Below are positions 2,434 through 5,640 of a stretch of DNA of 64,000 nucleotides, in pieces. The stretch is from Planctomycetia bacterium (GTDB taxonomy: Bacteria; Planctomycetota; Phycisphaerae; UBA1845; UTPLA1), in the NCBI GenBank assembly GCA_015075745.1, contig JABTTW010000001.1, forward strand, positions 682,001 through 746,000, read 5' to 3'. How positions within the stretch are numbered: the first letter of the stretch is position 1; the number at the start of each line of letters is the position of its first letter. A program made the translations under genes and the position numbers. The notes under the pieces are model-generated. The model had not been told where the DNA came from, did no database searches, and saw nothing but the letters and a program-made list of their open reading frames with translations.

Positions 2434-2519
2434 GCCCGGGTGGCGGAATTGGCAGACGCGCTAGGTTGAGGGCCTAGTTTCGGTTAAACGAAGTGCAGGT
2501 TCGACCCCTGTCCCGGGCA
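2434..2519 (+). tRNA. tRNA-Leu (anticodon GAG)
   Basis: Complete 86-nt class II tRNA. The acceptor stem GCCCGGG (2434-2440) pairs with CCCGGGC (2512-2518), and the discriminator is A2519. The anticodon stem CTAGG/CCTAG encloses the loop TTGAGGG, giving GAG. There is a long variable arm (TTTCG...CGAAG) and a T arm GCAGG-TTCGACC-CCTGT. CCA is not encoded. The 3' half is duplicated downstream, so this gene is the integration site of the element described next. Confidence 0.95.
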
Positions 2520-2522
2520 GTT
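2465..2522 (+). repeat. 58-bp direct repeat, left copy (attL-like)
   Basis: Runs from the anticodon loop of tRNA-Leu to 3 bases beyond its 3' end. The same 58 bases recur downstream as 4339-4350 plus 5595-5640, once the IS inserted there and its TA duplication are removed. The match is perfect by eye. Ending at a tRNA 3' end and starting in the anticodon loop is typical of attachment sites used by tyrosine recombinases. Confidence 0.85.
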
Positions 2523-2649
2523 GATTCTTTCCCCGAGAAAGCCAGAAAGTCGTTGAAATCAAAAGCGTTAAGGTCGCAGTTTGGTAAATCGCAAGCTCGA
2601 AACGACCGAAGTGCGGCCCTAGCTCGGATCAGTTTCTTAAGAATCTGTC

Positions 2650-3027
2650 TTAAAGACGGTTGCCGATGAAACCGCTTGAGAATGGCGCCGAATTGACGAT
2701 TACCGTAAGCACGCCGATCATGCTTCCATCAGATTGCAGGGTACCGTCTATTGTAAACAGTGAAGTTCCGAGTGATGTGGTTAGAATCATCGACCAAATC
2801 GCACGACTGCCAGTAATTGTTGCGGGCTGATTGGAAGTAAATAGATTTAACGATCCATCGCAGCCATCATCGACACGCACTATTTGATTATTCATCACGT
2901 CGATACAAGTTAGGCCAAGTCCGGACGTACTTTGAAGCCGCCAAGTTCCGTCAAGGGAAGGTCCCCCATCACACCCGAGCAAGCAAATGAGTAGACAAGA
3001 AACTAGGCCATAGCATTGCCTCGTCAC
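2650..3027 (-). CDS. small putative lipoprotein in the tRNA-Leu island
   Basis: Unrecognised protein of about 125 residues. It has a hydrophobic N-terminal stretch followed by a lipobox-like LLGC, then DGTWRLQSTSG and a beta-rich body (TITGSRAIWSMI, LFTIDGTLQSDGSMIGVLTV) resembling small lipocalin-like or META-type domains. I place the start at GTG 3027, which puts the lipobox cysteine near residue 19. The frame is open up to an ATG at 3129, which would overlap the upstream gene's end and give an unusually long leader. It lies downstream of the TSP3-repeat gene on the same strand, perhaps co-transcribed. Codon use is less G+C-biased than host genes. Confidence 0.5.
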   Translation of the reverse strand: MTRQCYGLVSCLLICLLGCDGGPSLDGTWRLQSTSGLGLTCIDVMNNQIVRVDDGCDGSLNLFTSNQPATITGSRAIWSMILTTSLGTSLFTIDGTLQSDGSMIGVLTVIVNSAPFSSGFIGNRL

Positions 3028-3103
3028 GTTGCTGTTTGAGTTCGAAATTTCCACCACGCTGAATCCTGCTTTGCAAGTGGGTTTTGACTTCCTTCGACAT
3101 AAT

Positions 3104-3994
3104 TCAGGGCAAAACGAGAACAACTTCACAGGCGTTTGTATTCAGCATCTCAAGTGCGAACCCTCGATCGATAATCTCAACTGCATCGCCGACAAACCAA
3201 TCAGCAGTTTCATTAACGTAGAATGTATTGACAAGAAAACTGAACCCAGAAGTCAAAAAGATTCGAATCGAACCGCTTTCGGGCGTCGCTCCCGTAATTA
3301 AGCCACCGCCGATTTCTAGATCGCCCTCGTAGCCGAAGTAACCATGCTGTTTGGTCCGAAGATTCGCAACTACCGCCCCGGTTCGGTTACCTGGAATGGG
3401 TGCGTTTAGTGCAACCACATCGCCATAGAAAAAGCCCAATGGGAAGTCTGATATAATCTGGCCTCGAAGATAAACACCTTTGATGCCTGTCACGGAAACC
3501 CCAATAAAGTCGCTGCAATATAGCTCCGTGACGAGGCCAAGCGTGTTTGGAAGCAGCAAATCAAGGCCAAAGGCGACTTCATCACCATCCAGAATCGTAT
3601 CGCCATCTGTATCAGGATTGAGCGGGTCGCTTGCGAAGTTAGGGTCTAGCTCCAAGCCGTCATCGAGGCCATCCAAGTCGGTGTCTGGCGAATTCGGGTC
3701 GGTACCGACCTCGATAACCTCTTTGTAATCAGAAAGCCAATCAAGGTCTGTGTCCGTGTGACTGGGGTCGGTGTGATAGATCAAAACTTCGTCCCCATCA
3801 CTTAATCCGTCTCCATCCGTATCTGCATTGGTTGAGCTTGTAAAAATCATCAACTCAAATGCGTCACTGAGCCCGTCACCATCAGTGTCGATAGACATCG
3901 CACTGGAGCCTGCCGGAGCCCCTGTCATTTGGCAGTTGCCGCCAAGGACGAAAGGAAGTGCCGCCAACAAGGCCGCTAGCCGTAGTCTTTTCAT
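3104..3994 (-). CDS. calcium-binding TSP type-3 repeat lipoprotein
   Basis: Protein of about 296 residues from ATG 3994. The signal peptide (MKRLRLAALLAALPFVLGGNC) ends in a lipobox-like GGNC, so it is probably an outer-membrane or surface lipoprotein. Residues about 35-150 carry at least five acidic loops of the form DTDGDGLSDxxE, DTDLDGLDDGLE and DTDGDTILDGDE, which is the thrombospondin type-3 Ca-binding repeat. The C-terminal 140 residues are unrecognised. The gene is cargo of the tRNA-Leu island and has lower G+C than the neighbours. A longer frame reaches 4117, but that part has no signal peptide. Confidence 0.75.
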   Translation of the reverse strand: MKRLRLAALLAALPFVLGGNCQMTGAPAGSSAMSIDTDGDGLSDAFELMIFTSSTNADTDGDGLSDGDEVLIYHTDPSHTDTDLDWLSDYKEVIEVGTDPNSPDTDLDGLDDGLELDPNFASDPLNPDTDGDTILDGDEVAFGLDLLLPNTLGLVTELYCSDFIGVSVTGIKGVYLRGQIISDFPLGFFYGDVVALNAPIPGNRTGAVVANLRTKQHGYFGYEGDLEIGGGLITGATPESGSIRIFLTSGFSFLVNTFYVNETADWFVGDAVEIIDRGFALEMLNTNACEVVLVLP

Positions 3995-4178
3995 GCCACG
4001 ATCCCTGAAAGAAATCAGACTTGATTGGCCCATCCGTGGCAGACGGCTCCGAGAGAATTCGTGGAGCCTCCTATACCCCGTAATTATGCGACATGTCGAT
4101 CTGGGATTCAATCTCAACGTGCCATGAAACCGCTCGCTCGGAAGAGTATGCTCGCAGGCATAGTCTGATCGTGGAGCA

Positions 4179-4350: not shown

Positions 4351-4378
4351 GTGCTCCGTCATCGTTAGCTTTGCGGGT
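4351..4378 (+). repeat. IS630 left inverted repeat
   Basis: Begins GTGCTCCGTCAT and ends TTTGCGGGT. It matches the complement of 5565-5592 at 22-24 of 28 positions by eye. Confidence 0.85.
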
Positions 4379-4448
4379 TATTTTTGGAAAGGGTCGATGT
4401 TCATGATTGGATGGCCGTGGATGGCCTGTTGATCATGGAGGATCGGCG

Positions 4449-4895
4449 ATGAAACGGTATGTGGTTCGGCTGGAGGCGGTGGAGCGGCGGCGATTAAAGG
4501 AGTTGGTTTCGACGGGCAGGGCGGCGGCCTACAAAATTCGGCACGCGAACATTCTGCTTCAGGCGGATGAATCGAAGTCACGACCGGGCTGGCCCGATAC
4601 GCGGATCGCAGAAGGCCTGGCGGTGTCGGTTCGGAGCATCGAGTACCTGCGGAAGCGGTTTGTAGAGGAAGGATTGGAGGCCTGTTTGGCACCGAAGAAA
4701 CGGCCCTTCCCGCCGGTGGCGCCAAAGTTCGACGGCCGCAAGGAGGCCAAACTTGTGGCCGTGGCCTGCTCGCAGCCGCCGAAGGGATACGAACGTTGGT
4801 CGCTCCGGCTGCTGGCCGACCGGGTGGTGGAATTGAAGATCGTGGACGCGGTGTCCCATGAGACGATCCGGCGTGTTCTTCAAAAAACGAGTTGA
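4449..4895 (+). CDS. IS630 transposase, N-terminal frame (helix-turn-helix part)
   Basis: About 148 residues from ATG 4449, preceded by GGAGG-like bases (ggaggatcggcg). It carries the DNA-binding part of IS630 transposases: LSVSVRSIEYLRKRFVEEGLEACL is the helix-turn-helix region, followed by a linker ending in HETIRRVLQKTS and a stop at 4893-4895. The protein family continues with KNELKPW, which is exactly what the next frame (-1) encodes. A run of six A at 4882-4887 just before the stop could allow -1 slippage to make the full transposase; otherwise the element is frameshifted and dead. Confidence 0.85.
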   Translation: MKRYVVRLEAVERRRLKELVSTGRAAAYKIRHANILLQADESKSRPGWPDTRIAEGLAVSVRSIEYLRKRFVEEGLEACLAPKKRPFPPVAPKFDGRKEAKLVAVACSQPPKGYERWSLRLLADRVVELKIVDAVSHETIRRVLQKTS

Positions 4896-5584
4896 AACCG
4901 TGGCAGAAGAAGATGTGGTGCATTCCGCCGGACCAGGATGCGGCGTTCGTCTGTGCGATGGAAAATGTTCTGGAGGTTTATCACCGGCCCTATGATCCGA
5001 AACGCCCGGTGGTCTGTTTCGATGAGAAGTCCAAGCAACTGGTCTCGGAGGTACGTCGGCCGATGGCGGCGAAGCGGGGTCAGGCGGCGCGGTATGACTA
5101 TGAATACGAGCGCAATGGGACGGCGAATTTGTTTGTCTTCGTGGAGCCGCTCAAAGGTTGGCGGCAGGTGACGGTGACGTCGCGGCGTTGCAAAACCGAC
5201 TTTGCCGGCCAGATGCGGGCGCTGGTGGACCTCCACTACCGCCGTGCGGAGAAGATCACCGTGGTGATGGACAATCTCAACACCCACACCGTGTCGAGCC
5301 TTTATGCCGCCTTCCCTCCAGCCGAGGCAAGACGGCTGATGGACAAGCTGGACGTGGTGCATACGCCCAAGCATGGATCGTGGTTGAATATGGCGGAGAT
5401 CGAGTTCAGCGTGATGGAAAAGCAGGCTCTCAACGGCCGCGTCCCCGATGAAAAGGCCCTAACAAAGCAAGTGAAGGCATGGGAATCAAATCGGAACCAT
5501 CGATCCAAACGAATCAACTGGCAGTTCACCACCGATGATGCCCGCGTGAAGCTCCATCGGCTTTACCCGCAAATTGAAACATGA
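4892..5584 (+). CDS. IS630 transposase, DDE catalytic frame
   Basis: Catalytic half, about 230 residues, in the -1 frame relative to the first part. The RNase-H-like DDE core is visible: CFDEKSKQL (first Asp), VVMDNLNTH (second Asp) and NMAEIEFSVMEKQAL (Glu). The ORF can begin at TTG 4892, but the natural product is more likely a fusion made by frameshifting at the A6 run (-1 reading gives QKNELKPWQKK). All three catalytic residues are present, so the protein would be active if expressed in one chain. Confidence 0.85.
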   Translation: MKPWQKKMWCIPPDQDAAFVCAMENVLEVYHRPYDPKRPVVCFDEKSKQLVSEVRRPMAAKRGQAARYDYEYERNGTANLFVFVEPLKGWRQVTVTSRRCKTDFAGQMRALVDLHYRRAEKITVVMDNLNTHTVSSLYAAFPPAEARRLMDKLDVVHTPKHGSWLNMAEIEFSVMEKQALNGRVPDEKALTKQVKAWESNRNHRSKRINWQFTTDDARVKLHRLYPQIET

Positions 5585-5592
5585 CGGAGTAC
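5565..5592 (-). repeat. IS630 right inverted repeat
   Basis: Complement reads GTACTCCGTCAT... TTTGCGGGT, the partner of 4351-4378. It overlaps the last codons of the transposase. Confidence 0.85.
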
Positions 5593-5594
5593 TA

Positions 5595-5640
5595 GTTTCG
5601 GTTAAACGAAGTGCAGGTTCGACCCCTGTCCCGGGCAGTT
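5595..5640 (+). repeat. attR-like repeat, remaining 46 bases (right of the IS)
   Basis: Identical to 2477-2522, the 3' half of tRNA-Leu and three following bases. Joined to 4339-4350 it restores the full 58-bp repeat. It is a pseudo-tRNA fragment with no acceptor 5' strand. Confidence 0.85.

Follow-up and report, generated by a model that had tools for sequence, protein, structure and literature searches.

An integrase-free island at tRNA-Leu(GAG) with an attachment site split by an IS630-family element

How can a small block of DNA without any recombinase of its own come to lie between two copies of a tRNA 3' end? This question is raised by a tRNA-Leu(GAG) gene in the window, i.e. the whole 64,000-nucleotide stretch analysed here, which is part of a 5.0-Mb assembly (97% complete) whose gene types look planctomycete-like. 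A sequence-only reading of the locus had proposed an island integrated at this gene, the right attachment site of which was later split by an IS630 element, and had left its nature between a satellite borrowing a host integrase and a deletion scar. Our comparisons favour the second possibility: with a probability of about three in four, the island is an integrase-made insertion that has lost its integrase, a CIME-like remnant, and was later disabled by the IS element.

Attachment sites, IS element and cargo

The whole tRNA-Leu(GAG) gene is followed downstream by a displaced 3' fragment in the same orientation (Table 1). The repeated sequence consists of the last 55 bases of the tRNA and the next 3 and runs from GTTGAGGG to CAGTT; its halves appeared separately, as matches of 49 and 14 nt, in the repeat search within the window. 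After removal of the IS element in silico, attL and attR are identical at 58 of 58 positions and the flanking sequences diverge immediately on either side, hence the perfect repeat noted earlier is exact to the base. By simple arithmetic, any given pair of positions would match over this length with a probability of roughly 4^-58, which excludes chance. Moreover, the 58 identical bases suggest that the integration is not old.

Table 1. Features of the tRNA-Leu(GAG) locus; positions are counted from the first base of the window.
Feature	Position	Strand	Basis
tRNA-Leu(GAG), whole, integration target	2434-2519	+	ARAGORN
attL, 58-bp repeat, from the anticodon loop to 3 nt beyond the tRNA 3' end	2465-2522	+	Repeat comparison
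Island interior, 1816 bp, 49.8% G+C, single copy in genome	2523-4338		Genome search and composition
Small putative lipoprotein, 159 aa	2650-3129	-	LLGC lipobox judged by eye; diverged homologues
Putative lipoprotein with bacterial TSP3 repeats, 296 aa	3104-3994	-	PF18884 (E 3.5e-14)
Orphan open frame, 53 codons plus stop, running into attR	4179-4340	-	Open reading frame only
attR, left part, 12 bp	4339-4350	+	Repeat comparison
IS630-family element, 1242 bp	4351-5592	+	Genome copies; NCBIfam and Pfam profiles
IS630 transposase, first frame (HTH)	4407-4895	+	PF13565 (E 2.8e-17); NF033545 (E 3.5e-15, below its cut-off)
IS630 transposase, second frame (DDE)	4892-5584	+	PF13358 (E 1.1e-25); NF033545 (E 8.2e-44, above its cut-off)
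attR, right part, 46 bp	5595-5640	+	Repeat comparison

The element that splits attR has the marks of the IS630 family, namely a two-frame transposase matching the IS630 model, with the frames overlapping by 4 bases, and a duplicated TA at 4349-4350 and 5593-5594. At least seven copies with a reported identity of 100% occur in the genome (40 of 46 candidates were scored), one of which covers 1186 of the 1244 query bases. C-TA precedes the element in all seven copies, and at the right end TA-G was found in five and TA-A in one of the six readable cases. Its copies thus sit mostly at CTAG, and nothing about the element is unusual for its family. Because it lies within attR, it must have come after the integration, and the order of events proposed earlier holds. 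It directly adjoins the anticodon-loop core (TTGAGGG CCTA/GTTT) and has thereby moved a binding arm 1.2 kb away. For tyrosine recombinases, such a displacement of a binding arm should stop excision, and the insertion in attR therefore probably locks the island in place.

The island is low in G+C, as had been claimed, and the unit measures 1.87 kb without the IS element. Its interior has 49.8% G+C compared with 62.3% for the window, and the third codon positions show the same difference (48% and 51% in the two lipoprotein genes versus 78-80% in three flanking genes). None of 1244 windows of equal length taken on a 50-base grid over the 64 kb is as low in G+C, and only 0.65% of 1548 such windows are when 43 stretches of the genome are used, some of which overlap one another while one falls in the 64 kb. 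The composition of the island is hence foreign.

Both lipoprotein genes point toward the tRNA. The TSP3 repeats expected from the first inspection were recovered by profile search; the lipoprotein status of both proteins, judged by eye from their N-termini, stays putative, and in the TSP3 protein the cysteine lies in a non-canonical context. The small protein has diverged homologues in nine other genomes of the same bacterial family (best identity 42%) and one paralogue in its own genome (34%). Among 298 genomes of the class, 13 including its own gave matches, ten of them within the family, again with its own included. It was assigned to no family of PHROGs, PADLOC or NCBIfam at the thresholds used, and its Pfam match is weak (E 0.88). 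Since this lipoprotein family is common in the bacterial family, the cargo need not come from afar. The C-terminal domain of the TSP3 protein matched in 9 of 248 class genomes, its own included; it is 42-44% identical over the domain in three genomes of the same order, the remaining matches cover only 28-46 residues at 37-62% identity, and none came from another family genome among those drawn. A genome scan with the TSP3 protein gave 218 relatives, but the best 80 of these 218, spread over many phyla, match mostly residues 29-155, i.e. the repeat region, so that the scan is of no help for the island.

In the viral collection, no relative of the TSP3 protein was found, and the 16 plasmid and 20 phage records that matched at the DNA level did so within the tRNA part only (2-5% of the query). 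For the orphan frame no credible homologue emerged. Matches to its peptide (4182-4340) at E up to 0.1 came from 21 of 397 genomes, among them its own, and were judged to be due to chance, because among nine loci inspected from the 20 foreign genomes one gave no alignment and the others were short, of low complexity or ridden with stop codons. A frame of 107 codons spans the junction of a hypothetical circle.

The site in related genomes and its integrases

A search with the 27-base tRNA end matched all 17 genomes of the family, once in 15 of them and twice in that of the window and in one other, G003. When the search was extended to the order, 66 of 114 genomes matched and the same two remained the only ones with two copies; a stricter 35-base pattern matched 9 of the 17 family genomes. 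According to ARAGORN, 14 of the 15 single copies lie in a whole tRNA-Leu(GAG). The exception, in G004, is a fragment that probably belongs to a shared element, so that the site counts as unoccupied in 14 of 17 genomes, with the restriction that most of these assemblies are fragmented and repeat copies may be missed.

The most informative relative is G015 from the same genus, in which an orthologue of the left-flank gene (161-2278 in the window; 60% identity over 652 aa) directly precedes the single tRNA-Leu(GAG). The tRNA is there followed by TTCGCCCCTCC, which resembles TTTCGCTCCTCC to the right of attR over about 10 bases and differs from the sequence to the right of attL. The 11 kb beyond the tRNA have 62-70% G+C, and no repeat of at least 26 bp was detected in the 15-kb stretch. 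The genes further right differ from those of the window; the best G015 match of the right-flank gene (5772-6683) is on another contig, within a 19-kb stretch in which no tRNA was found. G015 shows the empty site behind the same left flank. In G016, also of the same genus, the alignment is limited to the tRNA and its borders. Over 17 stretches from relatives the match extends past attR by 1-11 bases in seven and past attL by 3-10 bases in three, a weak hint that the flank on the attR side is retained beyond G015. An early flank comparison with nine stretches, which used the first 25 kb of the window for proteins, had yielded, apart from the tRNA, a single weak tblastn hit and some scattered tblastx matches (the strongest between 62.5-63.2 kb of the window and G001); the G015 synteny and the G004 fragment came from the remaining eight stretches, compared later. 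The cargo was not found at tRNA-Leu(GAG) of the relatives. Hence, neither of the two observations named beforehand as speaking against an island was made: the cargo is not conserved at this locus across the clade, and among the 17 genomes the only other doubled repeat, in G003, is accompanied by an integrase of its own.

This G003 integrase (457 aa, PF00589, E 9.1e-13) is a tyrosine integrase encoded beside the same tRNA-Leu(GAG). Its C-terminal residues PGTGVEPALRLTGTRPST are encoded by the tRNA sequence and its stop codon lies inside tRNA-derived sequence; nearby, a 65-aa HTH_17 protein (E 1.9e-9) has an excisionase family as its top PHROGs match. The repeat in G003 is also 58 bp long, from TAGGTTGAGGG to CGGGCA, and each of its ends lies within 3 bases of the counterpart in the window. 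Given this agreement, the repeat of the window is an attachment pair of the anticodon class. The tRNA fragment of G003 is on a second contig, and both contigs (3.3 and 3.5 kb) presumably bound one element. In G004, where ARAGORN found no tRNA-Leu(GAG) in the 14-kb stretch, the single copy begins as the G003 fragment does (TTTACGGAATC, some bases, TAGGTTGAGGG), and these two genomes of one genus probably share an element. The integrase at the same site in G003 and the site without insert in G015 both bear out the proposed integration at the tRNA 3' end.

Searches with the G003 integrase gave no match in the genome of the window at E 1e-20 (5 of 13 candidates scored) and no relative in the viral collection. 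Its tail shows no similarity beyond the tRNA to the 36 open codons running toward attL, an open stretch expected by chance about one time in six. In G001, G005, G006, G011 and G015 the hits are confined to the final 19-25 residues and coincide with the tRNA. A weak tblastn hit beside the tRNA in G012 (28.6%, E 1.2e-6) was rejected, as the open frame on which it lies looks OmpA/MotB-like by eye.

The genome of the window contains nine PF00589 matches, seven of them above the cut-off. None is in the window and no profile search assigned an island protein to an integrase family, in line with the reported absence of a recombinase. Among the matches linked to tRNAs, the one at tRNA-Thr has an internal TAA and the one at tRNA-Ser covers profile positions 101-169 only, under the family cut-off. 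When all 47 tRNA genes were scanned for a repeat of their 3' end over 14 to about 19 kb downstream, a scan that would miss longer islands and diverged repeats, four were positive (Leu-GAG, Glu-TTC, Pro-TGG and Pro-GGG). For tRNA-Glu(TTC), the interval is unremarkable, 8.6 kb long and with an integrase that terminates within the tRNA. The two tRNA-Pro loci have hundreds of downstream bases in common, e.g. a stretch of 354 bp at 97%, in a setting of Rhs-like fragments, and their repeats look recombination-made. The tRNA-Leu island is the one clear integrase-free attachment pair among the 47 tRNAs scanned.

Lost or borrowed integrase

The history that best accommodates these data would begin with an element encoding a tyrosine integrase for tRNA-Leu(GAG), which may have recombined into the chromosome within the anticodon-loop region of this gene. 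The incoming attachment site would have brought along the 3' portion of the tRNA and made the gene whole again, with the displaced 3' fragment becoming attR. An internal deletion would then probably have removed the integration genes, so that 1.8 kb encoding two putative surface lipoproteins remained between the attachment sites, before an IS630-family element went into a CTAG of attR and shifted one arm of the recombination site by 1.2 kb. That the integrase was once inside the island, and the way in which it disappeared, we infer. Against decay, neither an integrase remnant nor a deletion junction was recognised in the island, both of its genes have a whole appearance, and the search for a larger ancestral island gave none. 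In favour of decay, the spot next to the tRNA where an integrase would normally sit is taken up by the 3' end of the small lipoprotein gene. We favour decay over a borrowed integrase by about four to one, on the basis of the single copy, the lack of a G003-integrase match in the genome, and the tRNA-linked integrases at tRNA-Thr and tRNA-Ser, of which one is broken and one partial, which leans toward decay.

The strongest competitor, to which we give a minor but real chance, is a non-autonomous mini-island, mobile as it is, that borrows in trans the tRNA-Leu(GAG)-specific integrase of another element. Until the IS element arrived, both attachment sites were intact, and they would suffice with an integrase such as that of G003, which also demonstrates that a suitable enzyme exists in the family; moreover, the compact interior contains two genes that look whole. 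However, a mobile unit of this kind sits badly with a single copy in its own genome, with the sparse distribution and divergence of both cargo proteins, with the missing integrase match, and with the surroundings of the lipoprotein homologues, since no tRNA was found in 14 such loci (L071-L084, about 3.2 kb) or in five longer stretches (L252-L256). The island may thus have moved in trans by means of a borrowed integrase, but this received no positive support. Somewhat less probable still is that the island is naturally minimal and integrase-free, spreading via any resident tyrosine integrase specific for tRNA-Leu(GAG). If true, an attachment site and two surface-lipoprotein genes would make up a kind of element overlooked by integrase-based island finders, and an island that moved in trans would be a minimal passenger element.

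It is improbable that the block and a full element arrived as a tandem at this site and that the integrase-bearing partner was excised later. Such tandems are described for CIMEs (PMC5704250), but a genome search allowing up to 3 mismatches revealed no third copy of the site, although a clean excision would be traceless. Finally, one could suppose that ordinary recombination duplicated part of the tRNA around native genes, and cite for this the recombination-made look of other repeats in this genome that include tRNA-Pro ends. This reading can practically be dismissed in view of repeat ends that match the G003 attachment repeat, the foreign composition, and a G015 locus that has the left flank and the tRNA without the block.

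Comparison with known systems

The preferred reading, a decayed integrase-made insertion, places the island close to CIMEs, which are defined as elements without their former integration and transfer genes that have kept attL and attR (PMC5704250). The island of the window likewise retains both sites, albeit with attR since interrupted, and has no integration genes inside; it differs in that no ICE or IME lies in tandem with it and attR is broken by the IS element. No remnant pointing to derivation from an ICE or IME was recognised in it. Hence, it is a CIME by anatomy, and the term CIME-like is used here for this anatomy, with ICE/IME descent and cis mobilisation outside the claim. With the G003 element it shares the tRNA, the crossover region and the 58-bp length of the repeat, whereas the integrase and the excisionase-like gene are present in G003 only and the tRNA-proximal ends do not match beyond the tRNA.

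With the tRNA islands collected by Islander, the island has in common a whole tRNA, a 3' fragment downstream in the same orientation, and a site of the anticodon class, which accounts for 2083 of the 3919 Islander islands (PMC4383910). It differs from them by its small size and by the lack of an integrase gene inside. The unoccupied counterpart in relatives fits a tRNA-targeted genomic island in general. Candidates without integrase or below a 2-kb limit are rejected by Islander, as described for its procedure (PMC4383910), and islands such as the present one are thus left out by design on both counts. Collectively, the island adds a case to a kind already known: it is a tRNA island that lacks its integrase and was then struck by an IS element. 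Its value lies in a readable two-step history of integration and IS insertion, for which an empty site and an integrase-bearing counterpart are at hand in one family, and it shows that tRNA-Leu(GAG) has served for integration in this family.

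Integration modules at tRNA-Leu(GAG) and the targets of related integrases

In G003, another genome of the same family, the integration module consists of an HTH_17 gene and a tyrosine integrase whose end falls within tRNA-Leu(GAG), while the displaced fragment of this tRNA gene lies on a separate contig from the module (loci L033 and L032; contigs C361 and C8). A tRNA fragment similar to that of G003 is present in G004 (L154), a second genome of its genus. When relatives of the G003 integrase were sought in the class, a tRNA was found nearby at 18 of 30 loci (L040-L069; 2-4 kb fetched per locus), and the kinds varied, including Asn, Lys, Gln, Met, Gly, Tyr, Pro and SeC. 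Given this diversity, the group seems to switch its tRNA targets frequently.

Other tRNA-associated loci in the window's own genome

The genome containing the window (G000) carries an ordinary island at tRNA-Glu(TTC), where the integrase frame terminates inside the tRNA and the site is present again as a second copy. Two tRNA-Pro genes have their 3' end and downstream bases duplicated, 5.0 and 7.7 kb away, in a setting where small genes that recur and frames resembling transposases accompany Rhs-like fragments, as judged by eye; no match to the tyrosine integrase profile PF00589 was found at these two loci. Integrase matches near tRNA-Thr(TGT) and tRNA-Ser(CGA) are interrupted by an internal stop and partial, respectively.

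Coordinates of tRNA-associated loci in G000
Feature	Locus	Position	Size
tRNA-Glu(TTC) island	L006/L140	C2, 855-864 kb	8.6 kb
tRNA-Pro (TGG, GGG) repeats	L125 and L141	C1, near 134-139 kb and 851-859 kb	
tRNA-Thr(TGT) integrase match	L007	C1, near 604 kb	
tRNA-Ser(CGA) integrase match	L008	C1, near 227 kb	

Copies of the IS630-family element

The IS630-family element was found in G000 in seven near-identical copies (window 4351-5592; L013-L019), one of them covering just 1186 of 1244 query bases. Most are located at CTAG. The near-identical copies suggest that the element has recently been active.
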